Positions 5,990 to 48,492 of a stretch of 64,000 nt of DNA are shown here, one piece after another; within the stretch, counting starts at the first letter, position 1; every line of letters starts with the position of its first letter. A model generated the notes under the pieces. It ran no database searches. It saw nothing but the letters and a program-made list of their open reading frames with translations, and was not told the origin of the DNA. The stretch comes from Thioclava sp. ES.031. GTDB lineage: Bacteria; Pseudomonadota; Alphaproteobacteria; Rhodobacterales; Rhodobacteraceae. The position numbers and the translations under genes were made by a program. Location of the stretch: NCBI RefSeq assembly GCF_002563775.1, contig NZ_PDJO01000001.1, positions 2,916,501-2,980,500 of the forward strand, written 5' to 3'.

Positions 5990-6789
5990 GTCGGATGCGC
6001 TTCACGATCCTCGGCTGCGGCTCCTCGGGGGGCGTGCCGCGCATCGGCAACAATTGGGGCGACTGCGACCCGGCGAACCCGAAGAACCACCGGCTGCGCT
6101 GTTCGATGCTGGTCGAGCGGGTCGCCCAGTCGGGCACCACGCGGGTGCTGATCGACACCACGCCCGACATGCGCCAGCAACTGCTGACCGCGGGCGTGGG
6201 CGAGCTGGATGCGGTGGTCTACACCCACAGCCATGCCGATCACGTCCACGGGCTCGACGATCTGCGCCAGATCGTCTTCAACATGCGCACCCGCCTGCCC
6301 GTCTGGGCCGATGCCGATACCGAGGCCGCCCTTCTGGACCGCTTCGCCTATGCCTTCGTCCAGCCCTCGGACAGCAATTACAAACCGATTTGCGAGCTGA
6401 AATCGATCCATCGCGAGCGCCCCTTCCAGATTACCGGTGCGGGCGGCTCGATCGAGTTTCAGCCCTTTCAGGTCGAGCATGGCAATATCGACGCGCTCGG
6501 CTTCCGGATCGGCGGGCTGGCCTATCTGCCGGACGTCTCGGACATTCCCGAAGAGGCCTGGGCCTATCTCGAAGGCCTCGATTGCTGGGTGCTCGACGCG
6601 CTGCGCCGCACGCCGCACCCCACCCATGCGCATCTGGCCCGCGCGCTGGAATGGATCGAGCGCGCACAGCCCGCAAGCGCGGTACTGACCAACATGCATA
6701 TCGACCTCGACCACGACACGGTCGCCGAGGAAACCCCGGATCACATTCGCCCTGCCCATGACGGGATGGTTCTGGATTTCGGCCTCTAA
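5986..6789 (+). CDS. PhnP-like MBL-fold phosphodiesterase/hydrolase
   Basis: A 267-residue metallo-beta-lactamase fold protein starting at the ATGA overlap with tatD. Key features are GCGSSGGVPRIG near the N-terminus, the metal-binding HSHADHVHGLDD at about residues 81-92, a later VEHGN and the C-terminal NMHIDLDHD. The N-terminal glycine motif and spacing match PhnP-type cyclic phosphodiesterases, but no C-P lyase genes are nearby. A general nucleotide or phosphodiester function is likelier than phosphonate use. The stop shares one base with the following start. Confidence 0.88.
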   Translation: MSRMRFTILGCGSSGGVPRIGNNWGDCDPANPKNHRLRCSMLVERVAQSGTTRVLIDTTPDMRQQLLTAGVGELDAVVYTHSHADHVHGLDDLRQIVFNMRTRLPVWADADTEAALLDRFAYAFVQPSDSNYKPICELKSIHRERPFQITGAGGSIEFQPFQVEHGNIDALGFRIGGLAYLPDVSDIPEEAWAYLEGLDCWVLDALRRTPHPTHAHLARALEWIERAQPASAVLTNMHIDLDHDTVAEETPDHIRPAHDGMVLDFGL

Positions 6790-7736
6790 TGAGCGTTCTG
6801 ATCGACGTCATCCTGCCGGTCTTTCTGGTGATCGGCTTCGGCTACGTCGTGGCCTGGCGCGGGTTGTTCTCCGAGGGCGCGATCGACGGGCTGATGCGCT
6901 TCGCGCAGAACTTCGCGGTGCCGGTGCTTCTGGCGCGCTCGATCGCCAATCTCGACCTGACGCAGAGCTATAACTGGGCGATGATGGCGGCGTTCTACGC
7001 AGGCGCGCTGATCTCCTTCGCGATCGGGATCACCGGCGCGCGCGCGATGGGGCGCAACGGGCCGGAGAGCGTCGCCATCGGCTTTGCCTGCCTGTTCTCG
7101 AATTCGCTTCTGCTGGGCGTGCCGATCACCGAACGCGCCTATGGCACCGATGCGCTGTCGGGCAATTTCGCGATCATCTCGGTGCATTCGCCCTTCCTCT
7201 ACACGATCGGCATCCTCGCGATGGAGATGGTGCGCTCGTCGGGCACCGGCACGTCGCTTGGGCGCGTCGGGCTCAACGCGCTGATCGGCGTGCTGCGGAC
7301 CCCGCTGGTGATCGGTATCCTGACGGGCTTTGCGATCAAGATTCTCACCACGCTGACCGGCCAGCCCCTGCCCCATCCGATCCGCGAGGGGATGGACATG
7401 ATGGCGCGCGCGGCGCTGCCTGCGGCGCTGTTCGGGCTGGGCGGCGTGCTCTATCGCTATCGTCCCGAGGGCGATGCGAAGGCCATCGCGATGGTCACGG
7501 GCCTGTCGCTGATGCTGCATCCGGCGATCACCTATGGGCTCGCGCATTTCGCCTTCAAGGTGGACACGACCGCGCTGCGTTCGGCCACGCTGACGGCGGC
7601 GATGGCGCCGGGGGTCAACGCCTATCTCTTCGCGAATATCTACGGGGTGGCGCGCAGAGTCGCAGCCTCTGCCGTGCTGATCGCAACGGCGCTGTCGATT
7701 CTGACGATCTGGGGCTGGCTCGCGATCCTGCCGTGA
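6789..7736 (+). CDS. AEC (auxin efflux carrier)-family transporter
   Basis: A 315-residue integral membrane protein with about ten hydrophobic segments. The N-terminal VILPVFLVIGFGYVVAWRG and the central LFSNSLLLGVPI helix break are typical of the AEC/MleP family. Substrates in this family are organic anions such as malate or malonate, and none can be assigned here. It overlaps the MBL gene by one base (TAATG), so it is probably the last gene of the dacA-tatD run. A 3' repeat element follows and the next gene is convergent. Confidence 0.88.
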   Translation: MSVLIDVILPVFLVIGFGYVVAWRGLFSEGAIDGLMRFAQNFAVPVLLARSIANLDLTQSYNWAMMAAFYAGALISFAIGITGARAMGRNGPESVAIGFACLFSNSLLLGVPITERAYGTDALSGNFAIISVHSPFLYTIGILAMEMVRSSGTGTSLGRVGLNALIGVLRTPLVIGILTGFAIKILTTLTGQPLPHPIREGMDMMARAALPAALFGLGGVLYRYRPEGDAKAIAMVTGLSLMLHPAITYGLAHFAFKVDTTALRSATLTAAMAPGVNAYLFANIYGVARRVAASAVLIATALSILTIWGWLAILP

Positions 7737-7737
7737 G

Positions 7738-7850
7738 GTTCGGGGGCTCTGCCCCCCGTCGCCGGAGGGCGACAAGACTGACGTATCGAGGGGCTCTGCC
7801 CCTTTGGCCTACGGCCATTCACCCCGGGATATTTTCGCCAAGAGGAAGCG
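7738..7850 (-). repeat. Dispersed 3'-UTR element, copy A (downstream of irr)
   Basis: In the irr transcript direction, the stop is followed within 16 bases by CTTCCTCTTGGCG, then AAAATATCCCGGGG (7823-7836). Four perfect hairpins come next: TGGCC/GGCCA (7805-7817), AGGGGC/GCCCCT (7789-7803), GTCGCC/GGCGAC (7758-7773) and GGGGGC/GCCCCC (7742-7756). Because the AEC gene converges, the hairpins could end both transcripts. Related copies lie at 26336-26390, 39069-39145 and 46173-46222. Confidence 0.8.
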
Positions 7851-7854
7851 GCAA

Positions 7855-8280
7855 TCAGGCCTTGCGGACGCGGATCACCACGTCGACGCGGGTGATCTCG
7901 GCGCCTTCGGGGGCCTGCGGGATCGAGGCGAGCTTCAACTCCTCGGCCGGGGCATCCGACAAGCGGTTGTCGTCTTCCCAGAAGAAGTGCGGGTGATCGT
8001 CCATGCGCGTGTCGAAATAGCTGCGCGCGCCATCGACCGTTATCTCATGCATCAGCCCGGCGTCGCAGAACGCCTTGAGCGTGTTGTAGACGGTTGCGAG
8101 CGAGACTTTCTCGCCCGCATCGCAGGCGGCCGCATATAGGCTTTCGGCCGTGACATGACGATTTTCCCCATCGCCCACGAGCAATGTGGCCAGCGCCAGT
8201 CGCTGACGGGTGGGGCGCAGCCCGCCACGGCTCAGCCAGTCCTGCCCGCGGCGCTGTTCGGTCGAATTCGTCACAGCCAT
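7855..8280 (-). CDS. irr: Iron response regulator Irr (Fur family)
   Basis: A 141-residue Fur-family repressor. The helix-turn-helix lies around residues 20-75 (RPTRQRLALATLL ... ATVYNTLKAFCDAGL). The metal/haem region DDHPHFFWEDDN at about 93-104 matches the His-rich site of Irr rather than the HHDH site of Fur. No N-terminal haem-regulatory CP motif is present, as in other Rhodobacterales Irr proteins. GAGGAG precedes the ATG. It is divergent from fabA, a conserved pairing in this order, and it ends in repeat copy A. Confidence 0.88.
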   Translation of the reverse strand: MAVTNSTEQRRGQDWLSRGGLRPTRQRLALATLLVGDGENRHVTAESLYAAACDAGEKVSLATVYNTLKAFCDAGLMHEITVDGARSYFDTRMDDHPHFFWEDDNRLSDAPAEELKLASIPQAPEGAEITRVDVVIRVRKA

Positions 8281-24335: not shown

Positions 24336-25095
24336 GATACACCTCGATCACGCGTTTGTCGGCGGTCACATGGTCAAGCGAGCCTTCCGCCAGAACCGAC
24401 CCCTCATGCAGCACCGTCACCTTGCAGTTCAGACGGCGCACGAATTCCATATCGTGCTCGACCACGACCACGGCATGATCGCGCGCCAGATCGACCAGCA
24501 GCGCGGTGGTCTGCTCGCGCTCGGCCAAGGTCATCCCGGCGGCGGGTTCGTCGACCAAGAGCAGCTTTGGCTCCTGCGCCAAGAGCATCCCGATCTCGAG
24601 CCATTGCTTCTGCCCGTGGCTCAGCTCGCCCGATTTGCGCGGCAGTTGATCGGCAAGCCCCACCTGCGCCGCGATCTCTTCGACGCGCGCCCGATCGGCA
24701 GCCCCCGCCTTCCAGCCCAGCACCGCAAAGGGGCTGCGATTGGCCTTGAGCGCCATCATCAGGTTCTCGGTCACGGTCTGATCCTCGAAGACGGTGGGCT
24801 TCTGGAATTTTCGCCCGATCCCGATCCGCGCGATCTTCGCCTCGTTGAGCCGCAGCAGGTTGGTCGAGCTTTCCCCCCACAGCACCGAGCCCTCATCGGG
24901 CCGGGTCTTGCCGGTCACGATATCCATGAAGGTCGTCTTGCCCGCCCCGTTCGGCCCGATCACCGCGCGCAGCTCGGTCGGGCCGATATTGAAGCTGAGA
25001 TTGTTGATCGCCTTGAACCCGTCGAAGCTGACGGAGATGCCGGAGACCTCCAGCAGGGTCTGCACCCCCGCTCCCGGTTTGACCGCCGTCGTCAT
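24325..25095 (-). CDS. urtD: Urea ABC transporter ATPase UrtD
   Basis: A 256-residue LivG-type ATPase. Walker A GPNGAGKTTF, signature LSHGQKQWLEIGMLL (the SHGQKQWLEI variant is typical of UrtD), Walker B LLLVDEPAAGMT. It overlaps urtC by four bases (ATGA) and urtE by 11. The variant signature plus synteny with urease separates it from amino acid transporters. Confidence 0.95.
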   Translation of the reverse strand: MTTAVKPGAGVQTLLEVSGISVSFDGFKAINNLSFNIGPTELRAVIGPNGAGKTTFMDIVTGKTRPDEGSVLWGESSTNLLRLNEAKIARIGIGRKFQKPTVFEDQTVTENLMMALKANRSPFAVLGWKAGAADRARVEEIAAQVGLADQLPRKSGELSHGQKQWLEIGMLLAQEPKLLLVDEPAAGMTLAEREQTTALLVDLARDHAVVVVEHDMEFVRRLNCKVTVLHEGSVLAEGSLDHVTADKRVIEVYLGR

Positions 25096-26315
25096 TCCTG
25101 CGCCTCCTCTTCCCGGAAGGAGCCCTTATCGGGTCCGAGCGGTGCGCCGTGGCGGTTCGGACGGCGAATGCCCTCGAAGAGATCGACAAGCCCCGACAGC
25201 CCCTTCGGTGCGAACAAGGTCACCAGCACGAAGGCGAGCCCCAGCAGCACCTGCCACCAATCGACCCAGTCGATCGTGTAGAAGCCCAGCGGCAGATCGG
25301 GCACGCGCCCCCCGGTGAACCAGCTCGACACGATCGAGACGAAGGCCGCCCCCATCACCGCGCCATAGAGCCGCCCGCGCCCGCCGATCGCGACCCAGAC
25401 CGCGAGGTAGATCGACGCGATGGGCGCCATCTCGCCCGGGTTGATGATCCCCGCCTGCGGGTAATAGAGCGCCCCCGCAATGGCCGCGATCACCGCCGTC
25501 AGGGTGAAGACGAACAGCTTGTAGCCCTCGACCGAATACCCAAGAAAGCGCACCCGCGCCTCGTCATCGCGGATACCGCGAATGACCGAGCCGAACTTGC
25601 CCGAGACGATCAGCGACGCCGCGATATAGCCCAGCCCCAGCGCCAAAGCCGAGGCCCAGAGGAACCAGATCGACAGATGATCCTGCCCCGCGCTTACGCC
25701 CGGAATGTTCTGCAGCCCCGAAAGCCCGTTATTGCCGCGCAGCCCGCTCTCGTTCTGGAACAGGTAGAGCGACAGCGCCAGCGTCATCGCCTGCGTCAGG
25801 ATCGACAGATACACGCCCGTGACGCGAGACCGAAACGCGAGCCAGCCGAAGATCAGCGCCAAGAGCCCCGGCACCAGCACCACGAACAGAAGCTGCATCG
25901 GCAGGTTGCCCGCGAAGGTCCAGATCGCGGGCAGATCGGACCCGCCGACCACGCCGAAAATCTGCGTGCCGATGGCGTCATTGACCTCCTGCGGCGTCAT
26001 CGGGAACTCGCCTGCGGATTTCAGCACGATGTCGCGTGTGCGCTCATACATGAGCCACATGCCGATCATGTAGCCGCCCAGCCCGAAGAAGGCGAAATGG
26101 CCGAGCGACAAGATGCCCGTATAACCCCAGACCAGATCCATCGCGATGGCGATCAGGCACAGGCACAGCGTCTTGCCCAGCGTCTTGACCATCGAGGTCG
26201 AGATCGCCCCCGGCCCGTAGGCATGGGAGAGGAAGGTGACGCCCAGCGTGAAGACCGCGAGGATCAGCAGGAACCACAAGACCGACGGGTTCTTGGCGAG
26301 GAAACCGGATTTCAT
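25092..26315 (-). CDS. urtC: Urea ABC transporter permease UrtC
   Basis: A 407-residue LivM-type permease with about ten membrane segments. A periplasmic insertion after helix three (about residues 95-145) carries TPQEVNDAIGTQIFG. The EAA-like cytoplasmic loop is GSVIRGIRDDEARVRFLGY. The start at 26315 is preferred: GAGGTG lies just upstream, and the longer frame would translate the repeat element in the spacer. It pairs with UrtB. Confidence 0.94.
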   Translation of the reverse strand: MKSGFLAKNPSVLWFLLILAVFTLGVTFLSHAYGPGAISTSMVKTLGKTLCLCLIAIAMDLVWGYTGILSLGHFAFFGLGGYMIGMWLMYERTRDIVLKSAGEFPMTPQEVNDAIGTQIFGVVGGSDLPAIWTFAGNLPMQLLFVVLVPGLLALIFGWLAFRSRVTGVYLSILTQAMTLALSLYLFQNESGLRGNNGLSGLQNIPGVSAGQDHLSIWFLWASALALGLGYIAASLIVSGKFGSVIRGIRDDEARVRFLGYSVEGYKLFVFTLTAVIAAIAGALYYPQAGIINPGEMAPIASIYLAVWVAIGGRGRLYGAVMGAAFVSIVSSWFTGGRVPDLPLGFYTIDWVDWWQVLLGLAFVLVTLFAPKGLSGLVDLFEGIRRPNRHGAPLGPDKGSFREEEAQE

Positions 26316-26335: not shown

Positions 26336-26390
26336 CTGGGGGGCCAGCCCCCCAGACCCCCCGGGATATTTCAGGCAATTGGAAGGAATA
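26336..26390 (-). repeat. Dispersed 3'-UTR element, copy B (downstream of urtB)
   Basis: After the urtB stop, the transcript reads CTTCCAATTGCCTG, then AAATATCCCGGGGGG (26358-26372). A perfect hairpin CTGGGGGG-CTGG-CCCCCCAG follows (26336-26355). It lies inside the urt operon just before urtC. It may therefore reduce rather than end transcription, or act on mRNA stability. Confidence 0.75.
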
Positions 26391-26406: not shown

Positions 26407-28389
26407 TCAATCCCCCGCGGCCCGGCCCTTGAGCGCGATGATGCCGCGCGGGCGGAACTGGATGAAGATGATGATGAAGAGGATCATGTAGGTCTGCGCC
26501 GCGAGCGTATTCGACGGGTTCAGCCATTCGATGCCCTTCTGCAGCACGCCGATCAGGGTCGCACCCGCGAGCGTGCCGAAGATCGAGCCGACGCCGCCGA
26601 CCACGACCGTCATGAAGCTCTGCACGATATAGTCCTGCCCCATCTCGGAGGTGACTTTCGCGAAAAGCCCGATGGCCACGCCCGCGATCCCGGCGATGCC
26701 CGACCCAAACCCGAAGGCGAGCATGTTGATGCGATCCGGGTTGATGCCCATCGAAGCCGCCATCGACGGGTTCTGCGTGACCGCGCGGACCTCCAGCCCG
26801 AGGCGCGTCTTGCGCATCACCCAAAGGTAGAGGGCGAGGAATACGAGCGCCAAGACGAAGATCGCGATGCGAATATTGCTGATCGACACCACGTCGTTGA
26901 GCGTCCACGCACCTTCCAGCCACGGCGGCGAGGTCAGCGGACGGGCTTGCGTGCCGAAGATATTCTTGAACAGCTGCTGCAGCGCGATGGAGATGCCGAA
27001 CGTGGCCAGCAGCGTCTCCAGCGGACGTTTGTAGAGGTACCGGATCACCAGCCGCTCCATTGCGACGCCAGCCCCGAAGGTGATCGCAAATGCCAGAGGC
27101 AGCGCGATCAGGATCGACAGCGTATAATCGGGCACGAAAAGCTGCACGACATAGCCCGTATAGGCGCCCATCGTGATGAACTCGCCATGCGCCATGTTGA
27201 TCACGCCCATCACCCCGAAGGTGATCGCCAGCCCGATGGCGGCGAGGAAATAGATCGAGGCCAGCGAGAGCGCATCGAGGCCGAGATCGACCGTCTGCAT
27301 CCCCGCCACCGTGCGGCTCACGCGGGTCAGCGCGGCTTCGGCGGCGGCGGTCACCTCCGGGTCGCGCTCGGCATAGATATCGGCGAATTGGTGATCGGCG
27401 ACGAGCGCCGCGGCCTCTGCGTCGGTCAGCCGCTGCGGCACCTCGCCGGCAGCAGCCAGCGTCGCATAGGCCTCTTCGCGCTTGGCCGGATCGGACATCG
27501 TGGCCAGCGGCAGCCCGCCCACCTGACCGTTCTCGACATGCGCGGCCAAAGCCTGCTGCATCTGAGAGGCCGATATCCGCGCGGGCGCCAAATCGGCGCT
27601 TACCAGCTTCGCATAGGCCTCATCCTCGGAGATATCGCGGCCCGGCTTGAGCGTTTCCGCGACATTGCCCTCGGGCGCGCCTTCGAACACCTTGCGGGTC
27701 GTCGCCACCAGCGGGTTCAGCGTCGCGCGGAAATCCAGCCCCAGATCGGCCCCGAAACTGTCGATCGCCGCGACGCGCTCTTCGGCATCCTTGCCGAAGC
27801 GGATCGTCAGCAGGCGTTCCAGCCGCTGTTTTTCCGCCTTGATCGCGGGATCGGGCTCGTCGGGGATCGAGGCGCGCAGCGGCTCCAGATGCGAGGCCTC
27901 GCCGTTGCGGTCGATCGCGGTCAGCGCCTCGCGGCGTTTCTTCGGATCGGGATCGCTCAGCAGAAACCGCACCAGCGCCACGCCGATCTCTGCCCGAACG
28001 CCGGAATTCGGCTTCACTTCCTTGATGTCGGATTTCGGCGCGGTGCCGGCGGGCTCCCCGGTGACCGGATCGCTCAGCTCGTATTCGCTGCCGGATTTCT
28101 TCACGATGAAGAAGGCGCCGTCGCTTTCGCGCAGCCCAACGCGCTTGTCGGACCAGGCCTGCAGGAAGCGCGAGGCCCCCTCACCCGACGCCGCGATCGC
28201 CTCGATCACCGGGCCGATGGTGCGGCGCGACGGCTTGGCGACCTGCTTGGCATAGTCCTGAAGAACGGCGCGCAGCCCCGTGGCTTCGCTTTGCGTGACC
28301 TCCGCCTGCGGCGCGCTGCCCGCGTCCTGCGCCAGCCCCGGCACGGCCAATGCCAGCACAATCCCGAGCGCGATCAAAAACTTGCGCAT
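26407..28389 (-). CDS. urtB: Urea ABC transporter permease UrtB with long N-terminal domain
   Basis: 660 residues. A signal peptide (ALGIVLALAVPGLAQ) is followed by about 325 residues of helical, extracytoplasmic sequence containing repeated LR/LE-type helices and DPDPKKRREALTAI. A LivH-type permease of some 300 residues begins near 345 (LGLDALSLASIYFLAAIGLA). The EAA-like loop VRAVTQNPSMAASMGIN is normal. The front domain presumably sits in the periplasm near UrtA. The gene is separated from urtA by a hairpin and from urtC by repeat copy B. Confidence 0.93.
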   Translation of the reverse strand: MRKFLIALGIVLALAVPGLAQDAGSAPQAEVTQSEATGLRAVLQDYAKQVAKPSRRTIGPVIEAIAASGEGASRFLQAWSDKRVGLRESDGAFFIVKKSGSEYELSDPVTGEPAGTAPKSDIKEVKPNSGVRAEIGVALVRFLLSDPDPKKRREALTAIDRNGEASHLEPLRASIPDEPDPAIKAEKQRLERLLTIRFGKDAEERVAAIDSFGADLGLDFRATLNPLVATTRKVFEGAPEGNVAETLKPGRDISEDEAYAKLVSADLAPARISASQMQQALAAHVENGQVGGLPLATMSDPAKREEAYATLAAAGEVPQRLTDAEAAALVADHQFADIYAERDPEVTAAAEAALTRVSRTVAGMQTVDLGLDALSLASIYFLAAIGLAITFGVMGVINMAHGEFITMGAYTGYVVQLFVPDYTLSILIALPLAFAITFGAGVAMERLVIRYLYKRPLETLLATFGISIALQQLFKNIFGTQARPLTSPPWLEGAWTLNDVVSISNIRIAIFVLALVFLALYLWVMRKTRLGLEVRAVTQNPSMAASMGINPDRINMLAFGFGSGIAGIAGVAIGLFAKVTSEMGQDYIVQSFMTVVVGGVGSIFGTLAGATLIGVLQKGIEWLNPSNTLAAQTYMILFIIIFIQFRPRGIIALKGRAAGD

Positions 28390-32243: not shown

Positions 32244-33949
<1,706 letters not shown>

Positions 33950-33950
<1 letters not shown>

Positions 33951-38507: not shown

Positions 38508-38668
38508 GACGCACCTCCGGTAAATATCGCCCCTCCATTGCTCCAAAGCGGCGGAAGGCCTTGAAGTTCAGTCACGTTTTGGTCACTCCAGACGCTGACC
38601 GCGGCAGCGCGTCGCCTTGCGGGGCTACGGGTTTCTTGTCACAGTTCCGCGAATTGAAAGGGAAGCAG

Positions 38669-39061
38669 ATGGCCGAACCCGACCACGAGGAACTCGAAGC
38701 GATCTTCGAGGAGCGCGCAAAATTCTTCACCCCGAAATGGTTCGGCGATCTCTTCGCCGGGCGACTCGCGCCGGGAGATACGTTCTGGGCGGGCAATTAC
38801 GGGCCCGCGCTGGTGGTGGTGCCGTTGATCGTGATCTTTGCGCTGTTCACCGCGCTGATCTCGCCGGGCCATCTTGGTGCGTTCTTCGGAAGCTTCGCCG
38901 TGGCCGCCGGGGTCTACCGGATCGCGGTGCTGATCGGTCTGACCGGCTCGGTCTGGCGCGCAGAGGCCGGCCCGACTTTCTGGCGCTGGGTCGGCGTGCT
39001 CTGGACCGTGTTCGAAGCGGTCGCCCTGATCTGGCTGGGGCTGCGGCTCTACGGCGGGTAA
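38669..39061 (+). CDS. Small membrane protein of unknown function
   Basis: 130 residues. A soluble 35-residue acidic front (EELEAIFEERAKFFTPKWFG) is followed by three hydrophobic segments near 50-66, 72-93 and 108-125. GAAAGGGA precedes ATG 38669; a longer in-frame frame starting at 38561 lacks a ribosome binding site. Divergent from the AmiS/UreI gene. I recognise no family. It is followed by repeat copy C. Confidence 0.72.
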   Translation: MAEPDHEELEAIFEERAKFFTPKWFGDLFAGRLAPGDTFWAGNYGPALVVVPLIVIFALFTALISPGHLGAFFGSFAVAAGVYRIAVLIGLTGSVWRAEAGPTFWRWVGVLWTVFEAVALIWLGLRLYGG

Positions 39062-39068
39062 GCAAAAA

Positions 39069-39145
39069 GGGGGCGCGCGCCCCCTGCTTCGCTCTTTCAA
39101 AATATCCCGGGAGTGAATGGCGAAGCCAGAGGGGGCAGAGCCCCC
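39069..39145 (+). repeat. Dispersed 3'-UTR element, copy C
   Basis: After the stop of the small membrane protein comes a perfect palindrome GGGGGCGCGCGCCCCC (39069-39084). Then GCTCTTTC and AAAATATCCCGGG (39099-39111), GTGAATGGC, and the hairpin GGGGGC-AGA-GCCCCC (39134-39148 region). GTGAATGGC and the hairpin match copy A in the same order. Confidence 0.8.
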
Positions 39146-39146
39146 C

Positions 39147-40486
<1,340 letters not shown>

Positions 40487-40490
<4 letters not shown>

Positions 40491-46172: not shown

Positions 46173-46222
46173 GGAGGCGCCGTGCGGGCGCCTCCGGCGG
46201 GGATATTTTCACCAAGAGGAAG
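46173..46222 (-). repeat. Dispersed 3'-UTR element, copy D (downstream of glyS)
   Basis: In the glyS direction, the stop (46225) is followed by CTTCCTCTTGGTG, AAAATATCC (46202-46210), CCGCC, then a perfect hairpin GGAGGCGCC-CGCAC-GGCGCCTCC (46173-46195). CTTCCTCTTGG and AAAATATCC match copy A almost exactly. Confidence 0.8.
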
Positions 46223-46224
46223 GA

Positions 46225-48492
46225 TCAGCCTTCGATCTTGGTGAGGTCGGCCACATCGAGACAGATCTGCCGGATGCGCGAAAGCAGGTTCAGACGGTTG
46301 CGCCGCAGGATCGGGTTGTCGGCGTTGATCTGCACCGCCTCAAAGAAGGCGTCGATCGGCGCGCGCAGGTCGGCCATCGCGGACATCGCGGCGGCGAAAT
46401 CTTCGTCTGCCATCGCCGGGGAGATCTTGGCTTCGGCGGCGTCGAGCGCGGCGAATAGGGCTTTTTCCTCGTCCGTTTCCGCGAATTTCGGATCGGCGCC
46501 GAAGCTGTATTCCACCCCGTCCTTTTCCTCGGCCTGCGTGAGAATGTTGTTCGCGCGCTTGAAGCCCTGGATCAGGTTCTCGCCATCGTCGGTCTTGAAG
46601 AAGTCCGACAGCGCCTCGGCCCGCTTCACCACGAGGGTGAGATCGTCGCTGCCCGGCATGGCCAGCACGGCATCGATCACGTCGTGACGAATACCCGCAT
46701 CGCGCAGGTGGACCTTGAGGCGGTCGTGGAAGAAGGAGAGGAGGTTCTTGGCCAACTCAAACAGGTTCAACAAGCGCTCCAACCGTTCACGCTGCGCGCT
46801 CGTCTCGGCCGATTGCTCCGCCTCTAGGCTCGCCAATAGTTGATGCGCATACTCTTCTGGAAGAAAGCCAGCCTCGAATGCGGAAAACAGACCCTCGGCC
46901 TTTTTCGACCTAAATTGCTGAGTGGATGTTTCTTGATCCAAATCTTCGGCGCTCACGCCAAGATGCTCAGCAAGTTGAACAGGCAACCACAACTTTAAAC
47001 TCAGACGCAGCTCATTCGCCAGCACCAACCGGATCACCCCCAATGCCGCGCGACGCAGCGCGAAGGGGTCTTTGCTCCCCGTGGGCTTCTCGTCGATCGC
47101 CCAGAAGCCGGTCAGCGTGTCGATCTTGTCGGCGAGCGCGACTGCGACCGAGACGGGCTCGGACGGCACAGCATCGGACGGACCCAGCGGCGCGTAGTGG
47201 TCGCGGCAGGCATCCGCGACGGCGTCGGACAGCCCGGCCTTTTGTGCGTAGTAGCGGCCCATCACGCCCTGCAGTTCCGGGAATTCATAGACCATTTCCG
47301 AGCGCAGGTCGGACTTGGCGACGCGGGCGGCCTCGGCGGCGAGGTCCGGCTTCGCGTCGACCATCTGCGCGATGTCGCGCGCGAGGTTTTCGATGCGGCG
47401 GATACGGTCGCCTTGGCTGCCCAGCTTGTTGTGGAAGGTCACGGCGTCGAGCCCCGCGCCCATCCCTTCCAGCCCATGGGCCTGAACGGTGCGCAGGTCG
47501 TTTTCCCAGAAGAACTTGGCGTCCGACAGACGCGCCGAGAGCACCTTCTGGTTGCCCGCGAGGATGGTCGCGCCGTGATCGGCGGTCTCGCGGTTGGCCA
47601 CGGTCACGAAACCCTCGATCCGGCCGGTCTTGGGGTTCTTCACCGAGAAGAATTTCTGATGCTCTTTCATCGAGGTCTGCAGCACCTCGGGCGGCAGGTC
47701 GAGGAATTCGCCGTCGATCTCGCCCATCAGCGTGACGGGCCATTCAACGAGGCCCGAGACCTCGGCCAGAAGGCCCTTGTCCGGCACCACTTCCCAGCCC
47801 TTGGCGAAGGCCATCTGCGCGGCGTCGTGGTCGATCGCCTCGGCACGCTCATTGGGGTCGAGCATGACCTTGGCGGCTTTCAACTGTTTGGCGTAGCTCT
47901 CGTAGCCCGAGACCTGAAGCACATCGGGCGCCATGAAGCGGTGGCCGCGCGTGGTGTCGCCCGCCTCGATCCCGTCCACGTCGAGCGGCACGACGGTCGC
48001 GCCGGCCTCGTCGGTCAGGATCGCGAGGATCGAATGCAGCGGGCGGACCCAGCGCAAGCTGCCCTCGCCCCAGCGCATCGATTTCGGCCAGGGGAAGTTG
48101 CGGATCGTTTTCTCCAGCACCTCGGCCACGATCTCGGTCGCGGGGCGGCCCGGCTTTTCGATCACGGCGAAATAGACCTGCCCCTTCTTGTCGTCGCGCG
48201 CCTCGAGCTGATCCATGCTCAGCCCGGTCGAGCGCAGGAAGCCCTCGATCGCCTTCTCGGGCGCGTCGGTGCGCGGGCCCTTGCGCTCTTCGCGAAGCGT
48301 CGGCGAGTTGGCGGTCAGCCCTTCGACGGTCAGCGTCAGGCGGCGCGGGGTCGAGAAAGCGCCGGCGGAGGCATAGGTCAGACCTGCCTCGACAACGCCA
48401 TCGGTGATCAGTTTCTTCAGATCCTCACGGGCCTTCGGCTGCATCCGCGCGGGGATTTCTTCGGAGAACAGTTCAATCAGAAGATCGGGCAT
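46225..48492 (-). CDS. glyS: Glycyl-tRNA synthetase beta subunit
   Basis: A 755-residue beta subunit of the alpha2beta2 enzyme, with N-terminal PDLLIELFSEEIPARMQPKA, the core VEWPVTLMGEID, PPEVLQTSMKEHQKFF and GFVTVANRE, an HD-like middle, and the C-terminal tRNA-binding helices. Residues about 485-585 (46740-47040) have clearly lower GC and different codon choice than the rest. It starts one base after the preceding small gene and ends in repeat copy D. Confidence 0.96.
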   Translation of the reverse strand: MPDLLIELFSEEIPARMQPKAREDLKKLITDGVVEAGLTYASAGAFSTPRRLTLTVEGLTANSPTLREERKGPRTDAPEKAIEGFLRSTGLSMDQLEARDDKKGQVYFAVIEKPGRPATEIVAEVLEKTIRNFPWPKSMRWGEGSLRWVRPLHSILAILTDEAGATVVPLDVDGIEAGDTTRGHRFMAPDVLQVSGYESYAKQLKAAKVMLDPNERAEAIDHDAAQMAFAKGWEVVPDKGLLAEVSGLVEWPVTLMGEIDGEFLDLPPEVLQTSMKEHQKFFSVKNPKTGRIEGFVTVANRETADHGATILAGNQKVLSARLSDAKFFWENDLRTVQAHGLEGMGAGLDAVTFHNKLGSQGDRIRRIENLARDIAQMVDAKPDLAAEAARVAKSDLRSEMVYEFPELQGVMGRYYAQKAGLSDAVADACRDHYAPLGPSDAVPSEPVSVAVALADKIDTLTGFWAIDEKPTGSKDPFALRRAALGVIRLVLANELRLSLKLWLPVQLAEHLGVSAEDLDQETSTQQFRSKKAEGLFSAFEAGFLPEEYAHQLLASLEAEQSAETSAQRERLERLLNLFELAKNLLSFFHDRLKVHLRDAGIRHDVIDAVLAMPGSDDLTLVVKRAEALSDFFKTDDGENLIQGFKRANNILTQAEEKDGVEYSFGADPKFAETDEEKALFAALDAAEAKISPAMADEDFAAAMSAMADLRAPIDAFFEAVQINADNPILRRNRLNLLSRIRQICLDVADLTKIEG

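Follow-up and report, generated by a model that had tools for sequence, protein, structure and literature searches.

The closest described counterparts of the repeat analysed here are the GTAG-tagged, RAYT-linked REP and REPIN sequences, which, according to the available text of two reports (PMC3733652, PMC3116915), are likewise short, intergenic and hairpin-forming, exceed 100 copies, form head-to-head pairs and lie mostly in gaps between convergent or unidirectional open reading frames (ORFs). The Thioclava element differs from them by the lack of the GTAG tag and of a linked RAYT detectable in our searches, by a free stem and by some 16 conserved bases that form a motif separate from the hairpin. 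The CGTC-tagged REPs, frequent in Alphaproteobacteria, resemble it in having no dedicated transposase, in their head-to-head dimers and in their placement at gene ends, but possess consensus stems (available text of PMC3733652), whereas the Thioclava element carries no CGTC or TGTC tag and its stems vary copy by copy. A GTAG tag within 6 nt was present at 1 of 171 hairpins, and a CGTC/TGTC tag at one stem-loop end likewise at 1 of 171. Rho-independent terminators share the GC hairpin after stop codons; however, the element is conserved outside the hairpin, is found in either orientation and, in 32 of 145 listed copies, belongs to a short type whose mini-hairpin has a stem of 3 bp. Many copies, species-specific spellings and inverted pairs at gene ends are also combined in the DNA uptake sequences of Neisseria and Pasteurellaceae. 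In contrast to these, the element amounts to some 150 copies at least, few of them in genes (3 of 148 listed). Among the matches listed in the literature searched, judged mostly by titles and the beginnings of abstracts, no description of the repeat was found. In Rhodobacter sphaeroides, which may or may not carry the element, RNA 3' ends that depend on PNPase are described as lacking a motif (available text of PMC7866481).

The element was recognized in a window of 64,000 nucleotides, the whole stretch of DNA analysed, which corresponds to positions 2916501-2980500 of C1, the single 4,019,144-base contig of genome G000. The four copies reported there by the initial annotation (A–D, Table 1) are present upon inspection of the sequence and belong to a family with at least 150 copies in the 4.02-Mb genome, as counted with R1, a 27-position sequence model built from 56 copies. 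Genome-wide, the strict pattern YTTCNNNTTGRNNNAAATATCCC matches 113 times compared with 0 times for the reversed control, and GAAAATATCCC with up to one mismatch 99 times compared with once; 96 of these 99 matches were inspected and three left out. Inside the window alone, AAAATATCC (up to one mismatch) does not rise above chance, with 5 occurrences found versus 3.5 expected. All further counts refer to the 150 listed R1 matches, of which two were left out and 148 placed; predicted ORFs contain 3 of these, which characterizes the repeat as extragenic and many-copy and leaves 145 listed non-coding copies. Phage records gave no match to the element and viral contigs none to an exact 22-mer, while plasmid records gave six partial matches (five from Thioclava, one from Paracoccus). 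A crude split into genome halves, made without locating the origin, yielded 83 versus 67 listed copies (p = 0.22) and thus no replication polarity. At gathering score, Rfam 15 detected only tRNA and RF02514 in the window, neither of them at any of the four copies. The RF02514 match (5' ureB sRNA; 33510-33797, + strand, 90 bits) lies opposite the predicted gene 32244-33950 and perhaps represents coding similarity read as RNA.

The initial annotation had proposed a shared order for the four copies. The core AAATATCC is indeed common to all of them, and A and C additionally share TGAATGGC and the hairpin GGGG(G)C-AGA-GCCCC(C); the likeness does not extend further to B and D, which lack both. A GNA-type loop follows the core in A (GTA), C (GAA) and D (GGA), and B has none. 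Between the tail of copy A and the stop of the convergent gene 6789-7736 there are 53 nt, which contain an extra hairpin module, and the glmM stop lies 1 nt beyond the tail of copy C. The gene 38654-39061, convergent with glmM, encodes a 135-aa protein without NCBIfam match at E 1e-10.

Table 1. Copies of the element, accompanying hairpins and neighbouring genes in the window
Feature	Position	Strand	Description or basis
Copy A, after irr	7786..7848	-	head CTTC-CTC-TTGG 7848-7838, spacer CGA, core AAATATCC; R1 match G000:2924322-2924348
Copy A hairpins	7817-7805; 7802-7790	-	TGGCC-GTA-GGCCA; GGGGC-AGA-GCCCC; sequence
Extra module beside copy A	7741..7775	.	GGGGGCTCTGCCCCCC + GTCGCC/GGCGAC hairpin, after stop of convergent gene 6789-7736
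Copy B, between urtB and urtC	26338..26385	-	head CTTC-CAA-TTGC, core, GGGGGG/CCCCCC arms without GNA loop; R1 match 2942859-2942885
Copy C, between 38654-39061 gene and glmM	39086..39145	+	head CTTCGCTCTTT; core AAATATCC 39100-39107
Copy C hairpins	39118-39128; 39131-39145	+	TGGC-GAA-GCCA; GGGGGC-AGA-GCCCCC; sequence
GC hairpin upstream of copy C head	39069..39084	.	separate, outside repeat
Copy D, after glyS, short type	46190..46222	-	head CTTC-CTC-TTGG, spacer TGA, core, mini-hairpin GCC-GGA-GGC; R1 match 2962698-2962722
irr	7855..8280	-	NF045678/NF045677 above cut-off
urtB	26407..28389	-	TIGR03409 above cut-off
urtC, next after urtB	25092-26315		TIGR03408 above cut-off
glmM	39147..40490	-	TIGR01455 above cut-off
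glyS	46225..48492	-	TIGR00211 above cut-off

The general layout of the element is YTTC-NNN-TTGG-NNN-AAATATCC, usually followed by a hairpin with a free stem and a GNA or GNNA loop and often by GGGGGC-AGM-GCCCCC. Aligned on the core, the 145 listed non-coding copies use few classes of the first NNN (GGC 34, CTC 28, GCC 27, TTC 12, others), such that the heads split into several classes rather than a single one. TTGG is exact in 113 of the 145 and is separated from AAATATCC by three nearly free bases. The column entropy in the same copies amounts to 0–0.16 bits in the core, a value biased downward by the derivation of the search model from conserved copies, and to 1.92 and 1.84 bits at the spacer positions adjoining the core and 1.47 bits at the third.

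The tails are more diverse and comprise, among the 145 listed copies, 93 with a G-rich hairpin GGGGGC-AGC/AGA-GCCCCC or similar, the 32 short ones, 5 long ones and 15 others. The mini-hairpin of the short type reads GCC-GGA-GGC or CGC-GGA-GCG, with one changed base in a single copy. At least 10 bases precede the G-rich hairpin in 83 of the 93 copies, and 78 of the 93 form a separate first hairpin of at least 4 bp. While the second hairpin is common to many copies, the first one is nearly copy-specific, with 73 distinct forms in 83 listed copies and no shared palindromic consensus; its mean stem length is 4.9 compared with 2.8 in base shuffles. The loops of the 78 first hairpins (stem at least 4 bp) are of the type G..A in 62 cases and T..C in none, and 69 have a C-G closing pair, the shuffle control covering stem length and not loop type. 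A G..A loop was also found in 25 of 28 hairpins from other species, Thioclava included. Between G000 and the relative G014 the loop changes from GGA to GCA at 1500693 with an unchanged stem and at 1339830 with one changed stem base. Loops of the C(GNA)G and C(GNNA)G type are very stable in DNA, the four-base type also in RNA.

The position of the element with respect to genes was evaluated with calls from a simple codon-usage caller, for which starts are uncertain and small genes may be missed. On this basis, the 125 listed loci of G000 are distributed over 53 convergent, 66 same-strand and 6 divergent gaps. Compared to reference gaps in 400 kb of G014 (30 convergent, 146 same-strand, 49 divergent), the 125 listed loci are depleted in divergent (p = 2e-7) and enriched in convergent gaps (p = 1e-15). 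The link to gene 3' ends put forward in the initial annotation is therefore well founded, as 119 of the 125 listed loci occupy convergent or same-strand gaps. The same gap placement is described for published REPs in the available text of PMC3733652 and PMC3116915. Most copies are single, and the 104 single non-coding listed copies comprise 44 in convergent gaps, 34 same-strand antisense, 21 same-strand sense and 5 in divergent gaps. Head-to-head pairs with a spacer of 4–19 nt were found 21 times among the 148 placed listed copies, in 9 convergent, 11 same-strand and 1 divergent gaps. For same-strand gaps, the mean free distance between copy and stop is 38 nt, compared with 76 nt for randomly placed copies, and 0 of 20,000 draws gave a value as small. 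The median distance to the stop in these gaps is 9 nt for sense copies and 14 nt for antisense copies, the latter on the assumption that the tail spans 35 nt; the next start is farther away than the stop, with medians of 79 and 82.5 nt. Copies hug stop codons in either direction. Stop-near placement in combination with either orientation indicates that the preference for gene ends is real and that the sense rule is not.

This sense rule had been derived in the initial annotation from the observation that all four window copies point the same way, and had led to the suggestion of a role in the mRNA. The observation is informative only for copies B (urtB-urtC) and D (glyS), since A and C reside between convergent genes where either orientation counts. 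When the bias toward the upstream gene, on which the annotation had itself made its claim depend, was checked genome-wide, the listed single copies in same-strand gaps comprised 21 sense and 34 antisense ones, an outcome that speaks against the claim. In 400 kb of G014, at largely the same sites as in G000, 12 copies are same-strand (5 sense, 7 antisense), 5 convergent and none divergent. A further set from other species comprises 54 loci, 15 of them from Thioclava and some repeating sites of G000; 42 were scored, after exclusion of 11 close to an end and 1 located within an ORF. Its single copies are convergent in 15, antisense in 11, sense in 4 and divergent in 0 cases, and the 12 copies with a partner are convergent in 6, antisense in 4, sense in 1 and divergent in 1. 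A hand count outside Thioclava gave 4 sense and 7 antisense same-strand single copies. Pooling results in 25 sense of 70 copies, which deviates in the opposite direction (p = 0.02, the pooled sets being not fully independent). An element of the mRNA 3' end, carried in sense by the upstream transcript for termination, stability or small RNA binding, would agree with heads starting so shortly past the stop in sense copies of same-strand gaps and with the sense orientation of the glyS and urtB copies in those relatives that carry them. However, antisense copies make up 34 of 55 same-strand singles listed in G000, 11 of 15 in other species and 7 of 12 in G014, 32 of the 145 listed copies provide a mere mini-hairpin, and the conserved bases reside in the unpaired motif and not in the hairpin stems, so that we consider a sense-strand role highly improbable. 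As loop polarity is fixed within the element and its orientation to genes is not, the polarity presumably belongs to the element and not to the transcript.

The absence of a sense rule could be reconciled with a bidirectional intrinsic terminator or a block to 3' exonucleases, whose GC hairpins serve whichever gene ends there. Such a function is in line with the favoured convergent gaps, with the proximity to stops in both orientations and with the GGGGGC-NNN-GCCCCC-type hairpin of 93/145 listed copies; moreover, hairpin clusters without U-tracts may terminate, according to the available text of PMC8355165. However, the conserved part is the unpaired motif and not the stems, a generic terminator or exonuclease block needs no such motif, and copy B is positioned inside the urtB-urtC run. 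Terminators defined as a stem of at least 6 bp followed by a U-tract on the sense strand of the gene were detected at 5 of 22 convergent gene ends with the element versus 13 of 66 without it, and at 4 of 22 versus 24 of 222 same-strand ends. As they are about equally frequent with and without the element, it does not seem to replace one. We judge a terminator or exonuclease block to be an unlikely primary function.

The comparison between G000 and G014 is the one test that escapes most of the conserved-copy bias of the search model. For this purpose, 34 G000 copies in two syntenic blocks were sought in G014, whose own sequence played no part in their choice; 30 could be mapped, of which 29 have the motif, and the exception (2792763) was lost or gained as a pair partner. 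The core differs at 2/232 positions and the inner spacer at 13/86 (p = 1e-6), with YTTC (6/116), TTGG (4/116), the first NNN (5/87) and the six bases after the core (2/173) in addition; the 60 bases upstream of the copies have a mean identity of 0.90. Four of the 29 mapped copies combine a swapped head with a kept tail, and without those the values are 1/200 for the core and 6/74 for the spacer (p = 0.002). The head is swapped together with the spacer (irr, 2987073, 2855791), which points to an exchange of modules. The much lower divergence of the core suggests that the copies are kept by selection; sequence exchange between copies could also homogenise parts of the element.

These data also bear on the view that the family is a purely selfish REP- or MITE-type repeat, tolerated after stop codons and otherwise neutral. 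Its dispersal, the 21 head-to-head pairs (spacers 4–19 nt, listed copies), the clade-specific spellings and a placement like that of known REPs (available text of PMC3733652) would all be expected of such a repeat. However, neutral copies should decay evenly, whereas the divergence of the spacer exceeds that of the core more than tenfold, G014 has an element at 29 of the 30 mapped sites, the nearly saturated spacer and stems make the copies look old, and no linked transposase was found at the two Y1 loci of G000 or, by searches for Y1 and Y2, in most of 15 carrier genomes. We therefore assign a low probability to pure selfishness. Specifically, 12 of the 15 carrier genomes, mostly draft assemblies, gave no match to the Y1 transposase (PF01797), while the same search matched 5 of 14 control genomes; Y1 matches amount to one each in G009 and G014 and two in G000. 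No Y2 match was obtained in 13 of the 15 carriers, again mostly drafts, nor in the control genomes. An origin from RAYT or IS200-605 was considered and rejected, as the two Y1 genes of G000 are of the IS605 type with tnpB, no core is present in their 3.35-kb loci, and 12 of 15 carriers gave no Y1 match. The two IS605-type elements (tnpA + tnpB; L091 and L092) are similar to each other and located at 770 kb and 589 kb of G000.

The spelling of the element varies among relatives. Of the 15 other genus genomes, 10 have it after glyS, as does G018, which belongs to another genus; it was not found there in G004, G007, G010, G011 and G013 (5 of the 15) nor in G016 and G017. The glyS copy of G002, G005 and G008 is spelled AAATACTCCCGCCGGAGGC; a 26-base version of it, with at most 3 mismatches allowed, has 33, 34 and 28 copies in these genomes and 0 in G000, and the exact 19-mer AAATACTCCCGCCGGAGGC occurs in 24 of 61 family genomes and likewise not in G000. 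In G018 the glyS copy reads AAATATCCGCGCCGCAGGC, with 19 copies in this genome, one in G043 and none in 16 other genomes searched. Thus, three spellings are all found at the glyS 3' end, each in its own genomes. Heads also differ by genome: ATT accounts for 15 of 16 in G052, GAA or GAG for 7 of 7 in G050, and a mixture led by ATC and ACA is found in G053. R1 at E 5e-6 detected no copy in 5 of the 15 other genus genomes nor in 25 relatives outside the genus, and 36 of the 61 family genomes match neither exact pattern (YTTCNNNTTGRNNNAAATATCCC, AAATACTCCCGCCGGAGGC), which implies that the family is not universal at these spellings. Element positions turn over between genomes. The irr site carries the element in four near relatives, in unchanged orientation and in three of them with a clearly different head; 11 of the 15 other genus genomes lack it there, and in G018 its orientation is reversed. 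Between urtB and urtC, the element is retained by G002, G003 and G014, with different heads and tails in G002 and G003, and the site of copy C has an ortholog in G014, a head-to-head pair in G003 and none in G002.

Taken together, we tentatively propose, with a confidence somewhat short of even, that the element serves as a REP-like site, located at gene ends and recognized by a candidate host factor, and that termination or mRNA protection is at most secondary. In a neutral relic, the core should not outlast the spacer; in a generic terminator, the stem rather than an unpaired motif should be retained; and a RAYT-driven repeat depends on a Y1 enzyme, for which 12 of 15 carriers gave no match. 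The best fit is a factor recognizing the motif and perhaps also the loop. Classification of the family as REP-like intergenic elements of Rhodobacteraceae with clade-specific variants of AAATATCC appears to us nearly as probable as not. The putative factor would recognize the motif as DNA, probably in one of the two strands, and might mark or insulate the ends of transcription units by acting on topology, on 3' end formation or on both, while the spelling of the motif would drift together with the factor. Effects on termination or mRNA 3' stability would then likely arise incidentally from the GC hairpins. We favour a role in supercoiling or as a boundary because orientation to transcription does not matter, and termination may still contribute because GC hairpins follow stops.

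A more specific candidate would be gyrase or another supercoiling or nucleoid protein. REP clusters of E. coli have been reported as binding sites of such proteins, positive supercoils collect at the ends of transcription units, and a placement there irrespective of orientation would suit such a site. However, a double-strand site has no need for the strand polarity of the loop, and we regard a gyrase or nucleoid-protein site as distinctly unlikely. Returning to a motif-reading host factor, its most far-reaching version is possible but rather doubtful: an undescribed genome-wide recognition system of Rhodobacteraceae, composed of a bipartite site and a sequence-free GNA-loop hairpin at transcription-unit ends, with a reader outside both the Y1 and the Y2 HUH transposases and a species-dependent specificity, the copies at the same genes being respelled together. 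If true, this would amount to a code for gene boundaries that has dialects. The common explanations of REP-like repeats are that they are remnants of RAYT transposition or act as terminators; the present family largely preserves its own placement and motif, with no transposase detected in most carriers, changes its spelling by clade, and retains the loop type with a free stem. It would also supply markers for gene ends and annotation across a large and ecologically important family.

Two minor observations concern sequences that accompany the element. The module at 7741-7775 beside copy A consists of the GTCGCC/GGCGAC hairpin between GGGGCAGAGCCCC repeats and is absent at the same site in G014. 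A similar module occurs in G014 at two other sites, those of copy C and 3028717, which suggests gain and loss between short direct repeats. In addition, a longer shared tail with a CCTTCCNGTGGAAGG-like palindrome is found in G000 at 339818, 364186, 370202, 515510, 2153079 and 2987073 (six by eye, five by pattern).
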